Source of the DNA: an uncultured Psychroserpens sp.
GTDB taxonomy: Bacteria > Bacteroidota > Bacteroidia > Flavobacteriales > Flavobacteriaceae
NCBI GenBank assembly: GCA_905479815.1
Contig: CAJQOA010000038.1
Coordinates: 1-39,728 of the forward strand
Direction: 5' to 3'
DNA length: 39,728 nt
Below the pieces are notes generated by a model. The model did no database searches and had not been told where the DNA came from. It saw nothing but the letters and a program-made list of their open reading frames with translations. Position numbers and translations under genes: made by a program. Shown here in pieces: positions 35,884 to 37,688 of this stretch (positions are counted from its first letter, which is position 1; each line of letters starts with the position of its first letter).

Positions 35884-36297
35884 TTAAGTAGGATTTTGCA
35901 AATAACTCTGCAATATAATAGTTGCACTAATTTCATCAATCAACGCTTTATCTTTACGCTGTTTTTTTTTGAGCCCGCTATCTATCATTGTTTGAAATGC
36001 CATTTTAGACGTAAAACGTTCATCAACACGTTTGACAGGTATATGCGGAATAGCTTTTTCTAATTTAATTAAAAACTTTGCTATAGACTCCTCACTCTCA
36101 GACGCTTCATAATTCATCTGCTTAGGTTCACCAACAATGAACAACTCTACGTTCTCTTCGGAAATGTACTGCTTTAAAAACACAATCAACTCTTTGGTAG
36201 CAACAGTTGTCAAACCAGAAGCTATAATCTGCATCTCATCTGTAATTGCTATTCCAGTTCGTTTTGTCCCAAAATCTAATGCTAAAATTCTCGCCAT
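35884..36297 (-). CDS. ruvX: RuvX/YqgF family putative Holliday-junction resolvase / rRNA-processing nuclease
   Basis: 137 residues, RNase H-like fold. First strand RILALDFGTKRTGIAITDEM carries the catalytic Asp (D7 region), FIVGEPKQMNYEASESE the central part, VKRVDERFTSKMA the second acidic position, and DEISATIILQSYL the C-terminal acidic residue. YqgF-type enzymes act in 16S rRNA 5' maturation in E. coli and were proposed as resolvases. No TAnnTTTG box is seen in the short upstream gap; a terminator hairpin stands 40 bases before the ATG, the last of three tandem units. Confidence 0.93.
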   Translation of the reverse strand: MARILALDFGTKRTGIAITDEMQIIASGLTTVATKELIVFLKQYISEENVELFIVGEPKQMNYEASESEESIAKFLIKLEKAIPHIPVKRVDERFTSKMAFQTMIDSGLKKKQRKDKALIDEISATIILQSYLQNPT

Positions 36298-36330
36298 TTG
36301 GTAAAGTTACTTTTTATATTGTGATATGTT

Positions 36331-36439
36331 AAACAAAAAAACTCTTCTTTATAAACTAAAGAAGAGTTTTAAAATAATCAACTATCAATTAAACGCATGA
36401 AATTGTTTACCCTCTACCTTAAACAATTCATGTTCTATT
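36331..36439 (-). ncRNA. Candidate small RNA 3 of a tandem array (unit nearest ruvX)
   Basis: Read on the minus strand from the conserved GTGTC box (36449-36445). First hairpin: arms 36420-36432 and 36396-36409 (CATGAA-TTGTTTA type, 13 bp with one bulge; loop 36410-36419). Then an intrinsic terminator: AAAACTCTTCTTTA/TAAAGAAGAGTTTT (36338-36370, 14 bp, 5-base loop) followed by a T7 run. Total about 105-115 bases. No ORF of note. Ends are estimates. Confidence 0.5.
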
Positions 36440-36444
36440 ATTAA

Positions 36445-36469
36445 GACACTATAGTATTAAATAAGTCAC
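36445..36469 (-). promoter_or_regulatory. Conserved paired box, unit 3
   Basis: On the minus strand TGTGACTTAT, then GTGTCTTA, with exactly 15 bases between GTGAC (36469-36465) and GTGTC (36449-36445). The same arrangement occurs in units 1 and 2. No TAnnTTTG box here. Confidence 0.5.
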
Positions 36470-36499
36470 AAAAAAATAAAATATTTTTAATTTTTTACA

Positions 36500-36601
36500 A
36501 TAAAAAAGCCCTTCTCGGGGCAAAGAAAGACTTTTAAACAATTTGCTTTTTATATTAAAAAGGGTATATAGGGCAAACGATATCTTGTTGTTAACTAATC
36601 A
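36500..36601 (-). ncRNA. Candidate small RNA 2 of a tandem array
   Basis: Minus strand. After the paired box, an upstream fold (GTTTGC/GCAAAT, 36578-36573 with 36546-36541, enclosing CTTTTT-ATATT-AAAAAG-type pairing at 36562-36546), then a one-way terminator GCCC-CGAGAA-GGGC followed by T6 (36521-36502). The terminator is convincing only on the minus strand, which fixes the direction. About 100 bases. Confidence 0.5.
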
Positions 36602-36605
36602 TTTA

Positions 36606-36640
36606 GACACACAAATATATAATAGGTCACATGTTGTCAA
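36606..36640 (-). promoter_or_regulatory. Conserved paired box and consensus promoter, unit 2
   Basis: GTGAC (36630-36626) and GTGTC (36610-36606) on the minus strand, 15 bases apart. In this unit a housekeeping promoter also fits: TTG (36640-36638), 18 bases, TATATTTG (36619-36612). Confidence 0.55.
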
Positions 36641-36651
36641 TTTTTAATTTT

Positions 36652-36767
36652 CAAAAAGAAAACCCTCCTAAGGGAATAGGAGGGTTTTACAAAAATTAGC
36701 TATTAATTATTAAAGAATCCAAGCATTTGTTTAGGGAAAATACTTGGTAAATAATAATTCACAATAA
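36652..36767 (-). ncRNA. Candidate small RNA 1 of a tandem array (unit nearest dapD)
   Basis: Minus strand. First hairpin CCAAGTATTT/AAATGCTTGG (36747-36738 with 36728-36719; 10 bp including one wobble, 9-base loop), then the terminator AAAACCCTCCTA/TAGGAGGGTTTT (36688-36659, 12 bp, 6-base loop) with a T-rich tail (TTTTCTTTTT). About 115 bases. Ends are estimates. Confidence 0.5.
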
Positions 36768-36771
36768 ATAA

Positions 36772-36796
36772 GACACAACTATTATTCATAGGTCAC
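36772..36796 (-). promoter_or_regulatory. Conserved paired box, unit 1
   Basis: TGTGACCTAT then GTGTCTTA on the minus strand; GTGAC (36796-36792) and GTGTC (36776-36772) are again 15 bases apart. No exact TAnnTTTG. Confidence 0.5.
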
Positions 36797-36840
36797 ATTA
36801 ATTTTTATTATTATGAATTTACTCAACTAAATTATAGGCT

Positions 36841-36848
36841 TATATTTG
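36841..36848 (+). promoter_or_regulatory. -7 box of dapD
   Basis: TATATTTG on the plus strand, 24 bases before the ATG at 36873. The in-frame TTG at 36855 lies at about the expected start of transcription, so the ATG is preferred. No good -33 TTG. Confidence 0.55.
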
Positions 36849-36872
36849 TGAAAATTGCATTTAAAAAACAGA

Positions 36873-37688
36873 ATGAAAGAACTACAAAAAATTATAGAAA
36901 GCGCTTGGGATGATAGGTCTTTATTAGCTAATCAAGTCACAATTGATAGTATTAGAAACGTTATAGATTTACTCGACGAAGGCACATTGAGAGTTGCTGA
37001 GCCAACAGATAACGGATGGCAAGTAAACGAATGGGTAAAAAAAGCAGTTGTTTTATACTTCCCAATTCAAAAAATGGAAACTCTAGAAGCTGGTATTTTT
37101 GAATATCATGATAAAATCCCATTAAAACGCGATTATAAAAAACGCGGAATTAGAGTTGTACCAAATGCAGTAGCTCGTCACGGAGCATATATTTCTGCTG
37201 GTACTATTTTAATGCCTAGTTACGTCAATATTGGTGCTTATGTAGATGAAGGTACTATGGTAGATACCTGGGCAACAGTTGGTAGCTGTGCGCAAATTGG
37301 TAAAAATGTTCATCTTTCAGGTGGTGTAGGTATTGGTGGTGTTTTAGAACCTTTACAAGCAGCTCCAGTGATTATCGAAGATGGTGCTTTTATAGGCTCT
37401 CGTTGTATTGTTGTAGAAGGTGTACATATAGAAAAAGAAGCTGTTTTAGGCGCTAATGTTGTTTTAACCATGAGTACAAAAATTATTGATGTGACTGGTG
37501 ACGAACCTATAGAAATGAAAGGTAGAGTTCCTTCACGCTCTGTGGTAATTCCTGGTAGTTACACTAAAACATTTGCTGCTGGAGAGTACAATGTACCATG
37601 TGCGTTGATTATTGGTAAACGTAAAGAGAGTACGAATAAAAAGACATCACTTAATGATGCTTTGCGTGAATATAATGTTGCGGTTTAA
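36873..37688 (+). CDS. dapD: 2,3,4,5-tetrahydropyridine-2,6-dicarboxylate N-succinyltransferase
   Basis: 271 residues from the ATG at 36873, the family length. It succinylates tetrahydrodipicolinate in the succinylase branch of lysine/diaminopimelate synthesis. An N-terminal helical domain (MKELQKIIESAWDDRSLL, about 1-90) is followed by a left-handed beta-helix of hexapeptide repeats (about 100-235): VVPNAVARHGAYISAGTILMPSYVNIGAYVDEGTMVD split into six-residue turns, GVGIGGVLEPLQAAPVIIEDGAFIGSRCIVVEG. The C-terminal strand is PCALIIGKRKESTNKKTSLND. It starts the envelope group with the two glycosyltransferases downstream. Confidence 0.97.
   Translation: MKELQKIIESAWDDRSLLANQVTIDSIRNVIDLLDEGTLRVAEPTDNGWQVNEWVKKAVVLYFPIQKMETLEAGIFEYHDKIPLKRDYKKRGIRVVPNAVARHGAYISAGTILMPSYVNIGAYVDEGTMVDTWATVGSCAQIGKNVHLSGGVGIGGVLEPLQAAPVIIEDGAFIGSRCIVVEGVHIEKEAVLGANVVLTMSTKIIDVTGDEPIEMKGRVPSRSVVIPGSYTKTFAAGEYNVPCALIIGKRKESTNKKTSLNDALREYNVAV

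Follow-up and report, generated by a model that had tools for sequence, protein, structure and literature searches.

The window analysed here, a stretch of 39,728 nucleotides from an uncultured Psychroserpens, carries the divergent genes ruvX and dapD, and the interval between them holds three tandem units on the minus strand, named A (nearest dapD), B (middle) and C (nearest ruvX). The observation of a three-unit array is confirmed. A 36-nt box is common to all three units, each box is followed by a body and a terminator, as an earlier note on this DNA had described, and the start-to-start spacing amounts to 161 and 166 bp. The box pattern TGTGACYTAT-N11-GTGTCTWA, derived from the window's own three copies, finds perfect matches on the minus strand at 36442–36470, 36603–36631 and 36769–36797; shuffled sequences hold 0.12 matches on average at up to three mismatches, and none of 100 shuffles reaches three. 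The features of the locus, in order of coordinates, are:

35884..36297, minus strand: ruvX, flanking gene
36302..36309, minus strand: sigma-A type -7 box of ruvX, TAACTTTA (consensus TAnnTTTG, from the available part of PMC9723704)
36335..36438, minus strand: predicted small RNA C, with a predicted start (covariation; fold z -4.0; 115.5 bits with covariance model R1, which includes the window's own unit C)
36338..36370, minus strand: terminator of C (terminator search; paired-side changes)
36409..36416, minus strand: loop of C, UAGAGGGU, complementary to the ECF sigma mRNA at its start (L196)
36442..36470, minus strand: putative ECF-type promoter of C (perfect motif match)
36502..36599, minus strand: predicted small RNA B (alignment; fold z -1.9; weak R2 match, E 0.003)
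36504..36535, minus strand: terminator of B (terminator search; paired-side changes)
36603..36631, minus strand: putative ECF-type promoter of B, also containing TATATTTG (perfect motif match)
36653..36765, minus strand: predicted small RNA A, its start placed about 6 nt after the -10 element and its end at the T tract (covariation; fold z -6.1; 126.9 bits with covariance model R2, the window's own unit A being among the model sequences)
36659..36688, minus strand: terminator of A (terminator search)
36695..36714, minus strand: AU-rich module of A, UUUAAUAAUUAAUAGCUAAU (most columns invariant in 20 sequences)
36719..36747, minus strand: apical hairpin of A, with its loop UUUUCCCUAAAC at 36729–36740
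36769..36797, minus strand: putative ECF-type promoter of A, TGTGACCTAT-N11-GTGTCTTA (perfect motif match; motif regulon)
36841..36848, plus strand: TATATTTG, probable -7 box of dapD (read off the sequence; consensus from the available part of PMC9723704)
36870..37688, plus strand: dapD, divergent flanking gene

Structure, conservation and distribution of the units

Each unit ends in one intrinsic terminator on the minus strand (36370–36338, 36535–36504 and 36688–36659), giving three in the interval 36250–36900 against 0.2 in shuffled sequence. The strand assigned to these terminators in the earlier note holds throughout, but the stem of B, at 36535–36504, is longer than the 36502–36521 proposed there. 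No open reading frame of at least 60 aa lies wholly between ruvX and dapD, in agreement with the view that none of the units has a convincing one. The predicted folds of A (z -6.1) and C (z -4.0) are matched in stability by none of 200 shuffles each and that of B (z -1.9) by 10 of 200, so that the internal stem-loop previously proposed for all three units is firm in A and C and weak in B. Compensatory stem changes, which had been suggested as a check in the ruvX-dapD gaps of relatives, were found for both A and C: 92.4% of the cells in the A alignment are paired, with 42 two-sided cells against 16.8 in shuffles, and 96.2% in the C alignment, with 17 against 5.4. None of 500 shuffles matches either two-sided count, and sliding the helices by one to three columns destroys the signal in both. 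Support for B comes mainly from its terminator, with its paired-side changes, and B is the weakest of the three predicted RNAs. With compensatory changes in A and C, a box and a terminator in every unit and one to three units at the same place in 21 of 23 genus loci, the comparative evidence bears out the proposal of three small RNAs, now with predicted lengths of about 98–113 nt.

Among the named genomes compared, the four nearest RuvX relatives of the window are three Psychroserpens (84–93% identity) and one Flavobacteriales (88%). Among the 23 genus loci, 12 carry three units. The A and C families occur in Psychroserpens, Winogradskyella and Ichthyenterobacterium, and B was seen in part of Psychroserpens only. 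A further 75 ruvX loci comprise 13 with A and C, one with C only, four with a single, different unit and 57 with none, chance rows in L113 and L149 being counted as unit-less. The single, different unit stands under the same box before ruvX in Gaetbulibacter, a Flavobacteriaceae, Lacinutrix and one Winogradskyella (L095, L098, L102 and L132). Across 397 family genomes, the C model (R1) finds matches in seven at E <= 0.001 and the A model (R2) in ten at E <= 0.01; G060, G170 and G209, which belong to these ten, reach only E 0.004–0.007. The two models cross-match in Winogradskyella-type loci, and R2 gives its weak match to the window's B; in Psychroserpens the loops of A and C differ. The RuvX gene tree is too weakly resolved to show a single or a multiple origin of the array. 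In one genome (G016), unit A lies beside dapD on another contig with a perfect box and a terminator, and C is still found with ruvX, a rearrangement that separated A from C and indicates that the units are autonomous. A and C each combine their own box, a conserved fold and a terminator; B has the box and the terminator, with a weak fold.

Three of the parts predicted to be exposed are the best conserved: UAGAGGGU, the loop of C; UUCCCUAA, the loop of A; and the AU-rich module UUAAUUAAUAGCUAAUU, which precedes the A terminator. In the window, the A module UUUAAUAAUUAAUAGCUAAU consists of the 3' arm of the basal helix and a single-stranded stretch, and among the 50 module matches listed, 17 exact ones are unit A itself, one per genome. 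A near copy of the module, TTTAATAATTAACAACTAAT, occurs in at least 10 of the 21 genus genomes (two-mismatch matches, among the matches listed); at L370:1460–1600 it follows a terminator near a DCC1-like gene (DGVCNLCNSS), which L371 has as well, and this site may represent a further small RNA encoded on the opposite strand.

The suggestion that the RNAs might belong to Flavo-1 or another Rfam family is not supported, as no family of Rfam 15 reaches its gathering cut-off in the window or in 12 related loci; the best sub-threshold match in 36250–36900, searched down to E 10, scores 28.8 bits against a cut-off of 55. No report of the locus or the motif was found, among the matches listed, in the open-licence literature on small RNAs and ECF factors of Flavobacteriaceae and Bacteroidetes. 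The predicted RNAs are conserved, and to the extent that Rfam and the literature searched can show, their sequences are new.

The paired box and the genes behind it

The first reading of the sequence had not taken the paired box for a promoter of ECF type, which is how it is best read. In 53 Psychroserpens units, TGTGAC and GTGTC are (nearly) invariant and lie 15 nt apart, and the middle of the spacer is A-rich; the units were collected with the box pattern at up to two mismatches, and their conservation is thus partly by construction. Genome-wide, the window's own genome holds 25 box matches against five for the reversed control (at up to three mismatches), and the 21 genus genomes together 267 against 38 (at up to two). 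The consensus TAnnTTTG appears in only one of the 53 unit promoters, that of the window's unit B, where sigma-A could therefore start transcription.

The first downstream gene was checked at 82 sites, made up of 60 stretches from 12 relatives and 22 loci of the window's own genome, the downstream gene clusters being identified through Pfam on one member each. Genes recurring behind the box encode DUF2853 and MscL (nine genomes each), a 142-aa protein for which no Pfam match was found (eight genomes), LysM/BON and DUF3078 proteins (four genomes each), and OmpA, DUF937 and an aquaporin of the MIP family (three genomes each). Start codons lie mostly about 25–90 nt downstream of the box; some of the 82 sites precede single unclustered open reading frames, and six have none. 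Judged from the names of these genes, the set looks like a regulon for osmotic and envelope stress. The ECF-type box also precedes tiny hydrophobic open reading frames of about 22–35 aa (for example MKNTKRILSLIALLI...) at L008:1500–1790, L277, L286, L304 and L312, which in three genomes sit 247–248 nt upstream of ileS and are likely to encode a stress-induced small membrane protein.

The ECF sigma gene and the loop of unit C

In the genome of the window itself, one of the boxes stands before P0001, a gene for an ECF sigma factor (G000:C65; Sigma70_r2 and r4 domains). At the 19 genus loci it is followed by an open reading frame of 56–61 aa (56 aa in the window's own genome) and then by an mscS-like one of 275–276 aa. 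The sigma gene is present in 19 of the 21 genus genomes (E <= 1e-20), and in 19 of 19 orthologues the box ends 28–33 nt before the sigma start (at up to three mismatches). Other genomes yielded 21 sigma homologues; 20 of them were examined, and 17 of these 20 have a box upstream. In one genus genome (G009, L214), where the array and the box are present, a frameshift in an A tract disrupts the sigma orthologue (a pseudogene or an assembly error), the loop of unit A is without its CCC, and the last open reading frame of the sigma locus, in the mscS-like position, is cut by the locus end. An Algibacter (G438; L226, L246) carries two adjacent sigma paralogues, with a box (two mismatches) before the first only and no array at ruvX.

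The sigma gene was not found in two of the 21 genus genomes, G008 and G002, at E <= 1e-20. G008 has two boxes, equal to its control count of two, no units, and a ruvX-dapD gap of about 92 bp. G002, which clusters with the genome of the window in the tree of RuvX (support 99/76), has five boxes against three in controls; its unit A has lost the box, the apical hairpin and the terminator, its unit B has a broken -10 element and terminator, and its unit C keeps a perfect box and terminator, with a loop predicted to be more paired. Stem decay without compensation in relatives, which the earlier note had named as speaking against the RNAs, is thus seen for A and B in G002, a genome in which the sigma gene is also missing. 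Outside the genus, the sigma gene was not found in five of 25 genomes at E <= 1e-35; two of the five carry units, G418 with A and C and G431 with one D-type unit, which may be explained by genome incompleteness, and the other three carry none. Several genomes outside the genus have the sigma gene and no array at ruvX, and by these sequence comparisons the link between sigma and array is looser there.

The start of the sigma mRNA is complementary to the C loop over 8–10 nt at nt +5, just after a conserved UUG start, in 13 of 19 genus orthologues; in the other six of the 19 Psychroserpens, the complementarity spans only 6 nt or is displaced. The mean energy of the C-sigma helix is -10.5, against -6.0 for shuffled targets, the best of 200 shuffle means being -7.5. 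These values come from a loop-only test, full-length duplexes computed without structure having given uninformative long duplexes; of 21 predicted C folds, 17 leave most of the loop unpaired. The core of the target is the proline codon at sigma position 3. It reads CCC in 18 of 19 genomes, a constancy that none of the other four-fold sites (32 in all) quite equals, two of them coming close at 17/18; CCC is rare, accounting for 11 of the 355 proline codons in the window. The complement, the helix energies and the constancy of CCC together lead to the proposal that C would repress the translation of its own sigma in Psychroserpens.

Among 811 gene-start regions from the fetched loci, some of which were fetched because they held the complement, 19 reach -11.3 or better, 12 of them sigma and seven not, so that about 1% of gene starts carry a complement this strong. 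The 21 genomes show no enrichment of ACCCTCTACC, the 10-nt complement of the C loop: it has 71 matches, those in the array counted, and the reversed control has 106. Pairing of C with sigma is weak or absent in most of the 11 genomes compared from Ichthyenterobacterium and the Winogradskyella type, where the GAGGG loop is kept. The persistence of this loop where the sigma pairing fails points to an older, more deeply conserved target of C, which was not found in a search covering the sigma start, the 811 gene starts and the one 10-mer. At L227:2265 in Ichthyenterobacterium, the start of an open reading frame downstream of sigma, called mscS-like from the resemblance of its first residues, complements the C loop at the same strength (-11.6); it is not sigma. 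Comparison of the apical loop of A with the sigma start gave no consistent signal. The idea that the C loop acts as a sponge for A or B was rejected, the helices being of 5–9 bp and their site differing from genome to genome.

Interpretation and relation to known systems

The reading that we consider very probable is that A, B and C are autonomous non-coding RNA genes driven by an ECF sigma factor, which make up the RNA arm of a regulon for osmotic and envelope stress and among which C would brake the sigma. The product of P0001 would transcribe the three genes from their ECF-type promoters together with the other members of the regulon, namely mscL, the LysM/BON, OmpA, DUF2853 and DUF3078 genes and, in some species, the aquaporin gene. 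Hfq (PF17209) was found in none of the 21 genus genomes, the control search detecting it in five of 14 genomes including E. coli and B. subtilis; the RNAs would hence act without Hfq, presumably through short loop seeds, UAGAGGGU in C and UUCCCUAA in A. In most Psychroserpens, C would pair with sigma codons 2–5 beside the UUG start and so brake the response. Sequence evidence supports the box, the terminators, the folds of A and C with their compensatory changes, the box common to stress and sigma genes, and the loss of units along with sigma. From it we infer that the units are transcribed, that the P0001 sigma recognises their promoters, what the inducing stress is, that C represses sigma, and that there are other targets.

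Alternative accounts deal with the array, the box and the RNAs themselves. Lying upstream of ruvX and on its strand, the units could be taken for a cis-acting leader or attenuator of ruvX with serial terminators, or for antisense control of dapD. Such a role is very improbable: a transcript from the boxes would meet three complete terminators before ruvX, dapD is not overlapped by any unit, and in G016 unit A sits beside dapD, away from ruvX, with its own box and terminator. Moreover, ruvX has its own TAnnTTTG box 12–15 nt before the gene in 34 of the 35 loci with C, the window, with TAACTTTA, being the exception, so that a ruvX start beyond the last hairpin, previously listed as counter-evidence to the small RNAs, is in fact expected. 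Among 37 loci without units, in which a dapD-sized opposite open reading frame adjoins ruvX, 27 have a gap of only 58–183 bp, which indicates that ruvX does without the units. That the units encode very small proteins is scarcely credible; C does contain a 5-codon ATG frame (MNCLR-like) in many aligned species, but the frame is lost in several relatives through changes of ATG to ATA or AGG or a frame shift, alignment gaps do not come in threes, and changes follow the base pairs.

The resemblance of the half-boxes TGTGAC and GTGTC, together with the presence of TATATTTG between the box halves of the window's unit B, would suit a transcription-factor operator built of two half-sites, the RNAs being real but made by sigma-A. 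The fixed 15-nt spacing, the ECF-like -10 element GTGTC and the placement of the box mostly about 25–90 nt ahead of start codons, and 28–33 nt ahead of those of the 19 sigma genes, argue against an operator, as do the position of the box before the ECF sigma gene itself, its loss together with sigma in the genus and the solitary TAnnTTTG among the 53 unit promoters, and we regard it as decidedly unlikely. Somewhat less remote, while still unlikely, is that the RNAs bind a protein through the AU-rich module UUAAUUAAUAGCUAAUU, as a sponge or a chaperone docking site, and do not pair with mRNA. This module is nearly invariant in genus A units and is common to A and C in several Winogradskyella, and a conserved, partly single-stranded element fits a protein site. 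The loops UAGAGGGU and UUCCCUAA, however, show separate conservation, most of the RNAs are predicted to expose them, and C complements the sigma start; protein binding and mRNA pairing may also coexist.

Short, terminator-ended non-coding RNAs transcribed from ECF promoters are familiar from MicA, RybB and MicL of the enterobacteria, which form the repressive arm of sigmaE and whose genes are scattered; feedback of RybB on its sigma has been described. Sibling RNAs under one regulator are likewise known from Qrr, LhrC and OmrA/OmrB. As predicted from sequence, the array RNAs would resemble MicA, RybB and MicL in being short, terminator-ended and under ECF-type promoters, but they differ in their tandem arrangement, in their phylum, the Bacteroidota, and in having no Rfam match; since Hfq was not found, they are not members of the Hfq-dependent sigmaE class of MicA and RybB. 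As in Qrr, LhrC and OmrA/OmrB, RNAs of the same layout would stand under one regulator, but in Psychroserpens A and C each retain a loop of their own, and B is confined to part of the genus.

Outside the Proteobacteria, the available part of one account describes a stress response under an ECF sigmaE in Fusobacterium nucleatum whose non-coding arm consists of FoxI and FoxJ, and has both repress the porin FomA (PMC11005410). By that description, the array RNAs may be likened to FoxI and FoxJ as companion RNAs of an ECF stress response outside the Proteobacteria, although the sole target predicted here is the sigma start. Within the Flavobacteriaceae, the part available of a study of Flavobacterium psychrophilum places the small RNA Rfp11 under an ECF motif, SM6, with a CGT box in the -10 region, lists several type IX secretion components among the SM6 genes, and has Rfp18 act on proteases (PMC9723704). 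Going by that partial account, the RNAs predicted here share with Rfp11 and Rfp18 their family, and would share with Rfp11 an ECF-type promoter, but GTGTCT and an osmotic and envelope gene set distinguish them, by description, from SM6 and Rfp11.

A more specific form of the preferred reading can be put forward tentatively, with slightly less than even confidence: the array would be an Hfq-independent tandem RNA cassette serving as the repressive arm of its sigma, the C loop UAGAGGGU would close a negative feedback at the UUG start, this pairing would have held the rare CCC codon in place across the genus, and loss of sigma would have led to decay of the cassette. By analogy, abundant outer-membrane proteins would be the first candidate targets of A and B.

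Control by small RNAs is poorly mapped in the Bacteroidota, and its logic is open where Hfq is missing. The locus between ruvX and dapD offers a compact and testable system in this respect, with three predicted RNAs of defined ends, a named sigma, a predicted regulon of channel and envelope-protein genes, two lines of natural loss (G002 and G008) and one explicit prediction of base pairing at a start codon. The ECF promoter motif and the two covariance models can furthermore be used to find more RNAs in marine flavobacteria. Sigma-driven small RNAs as such are already known; it is their tandem, Hfq-less form in the Bacteroidota, with its predicted pairing to the sigma start, that is worth testing.
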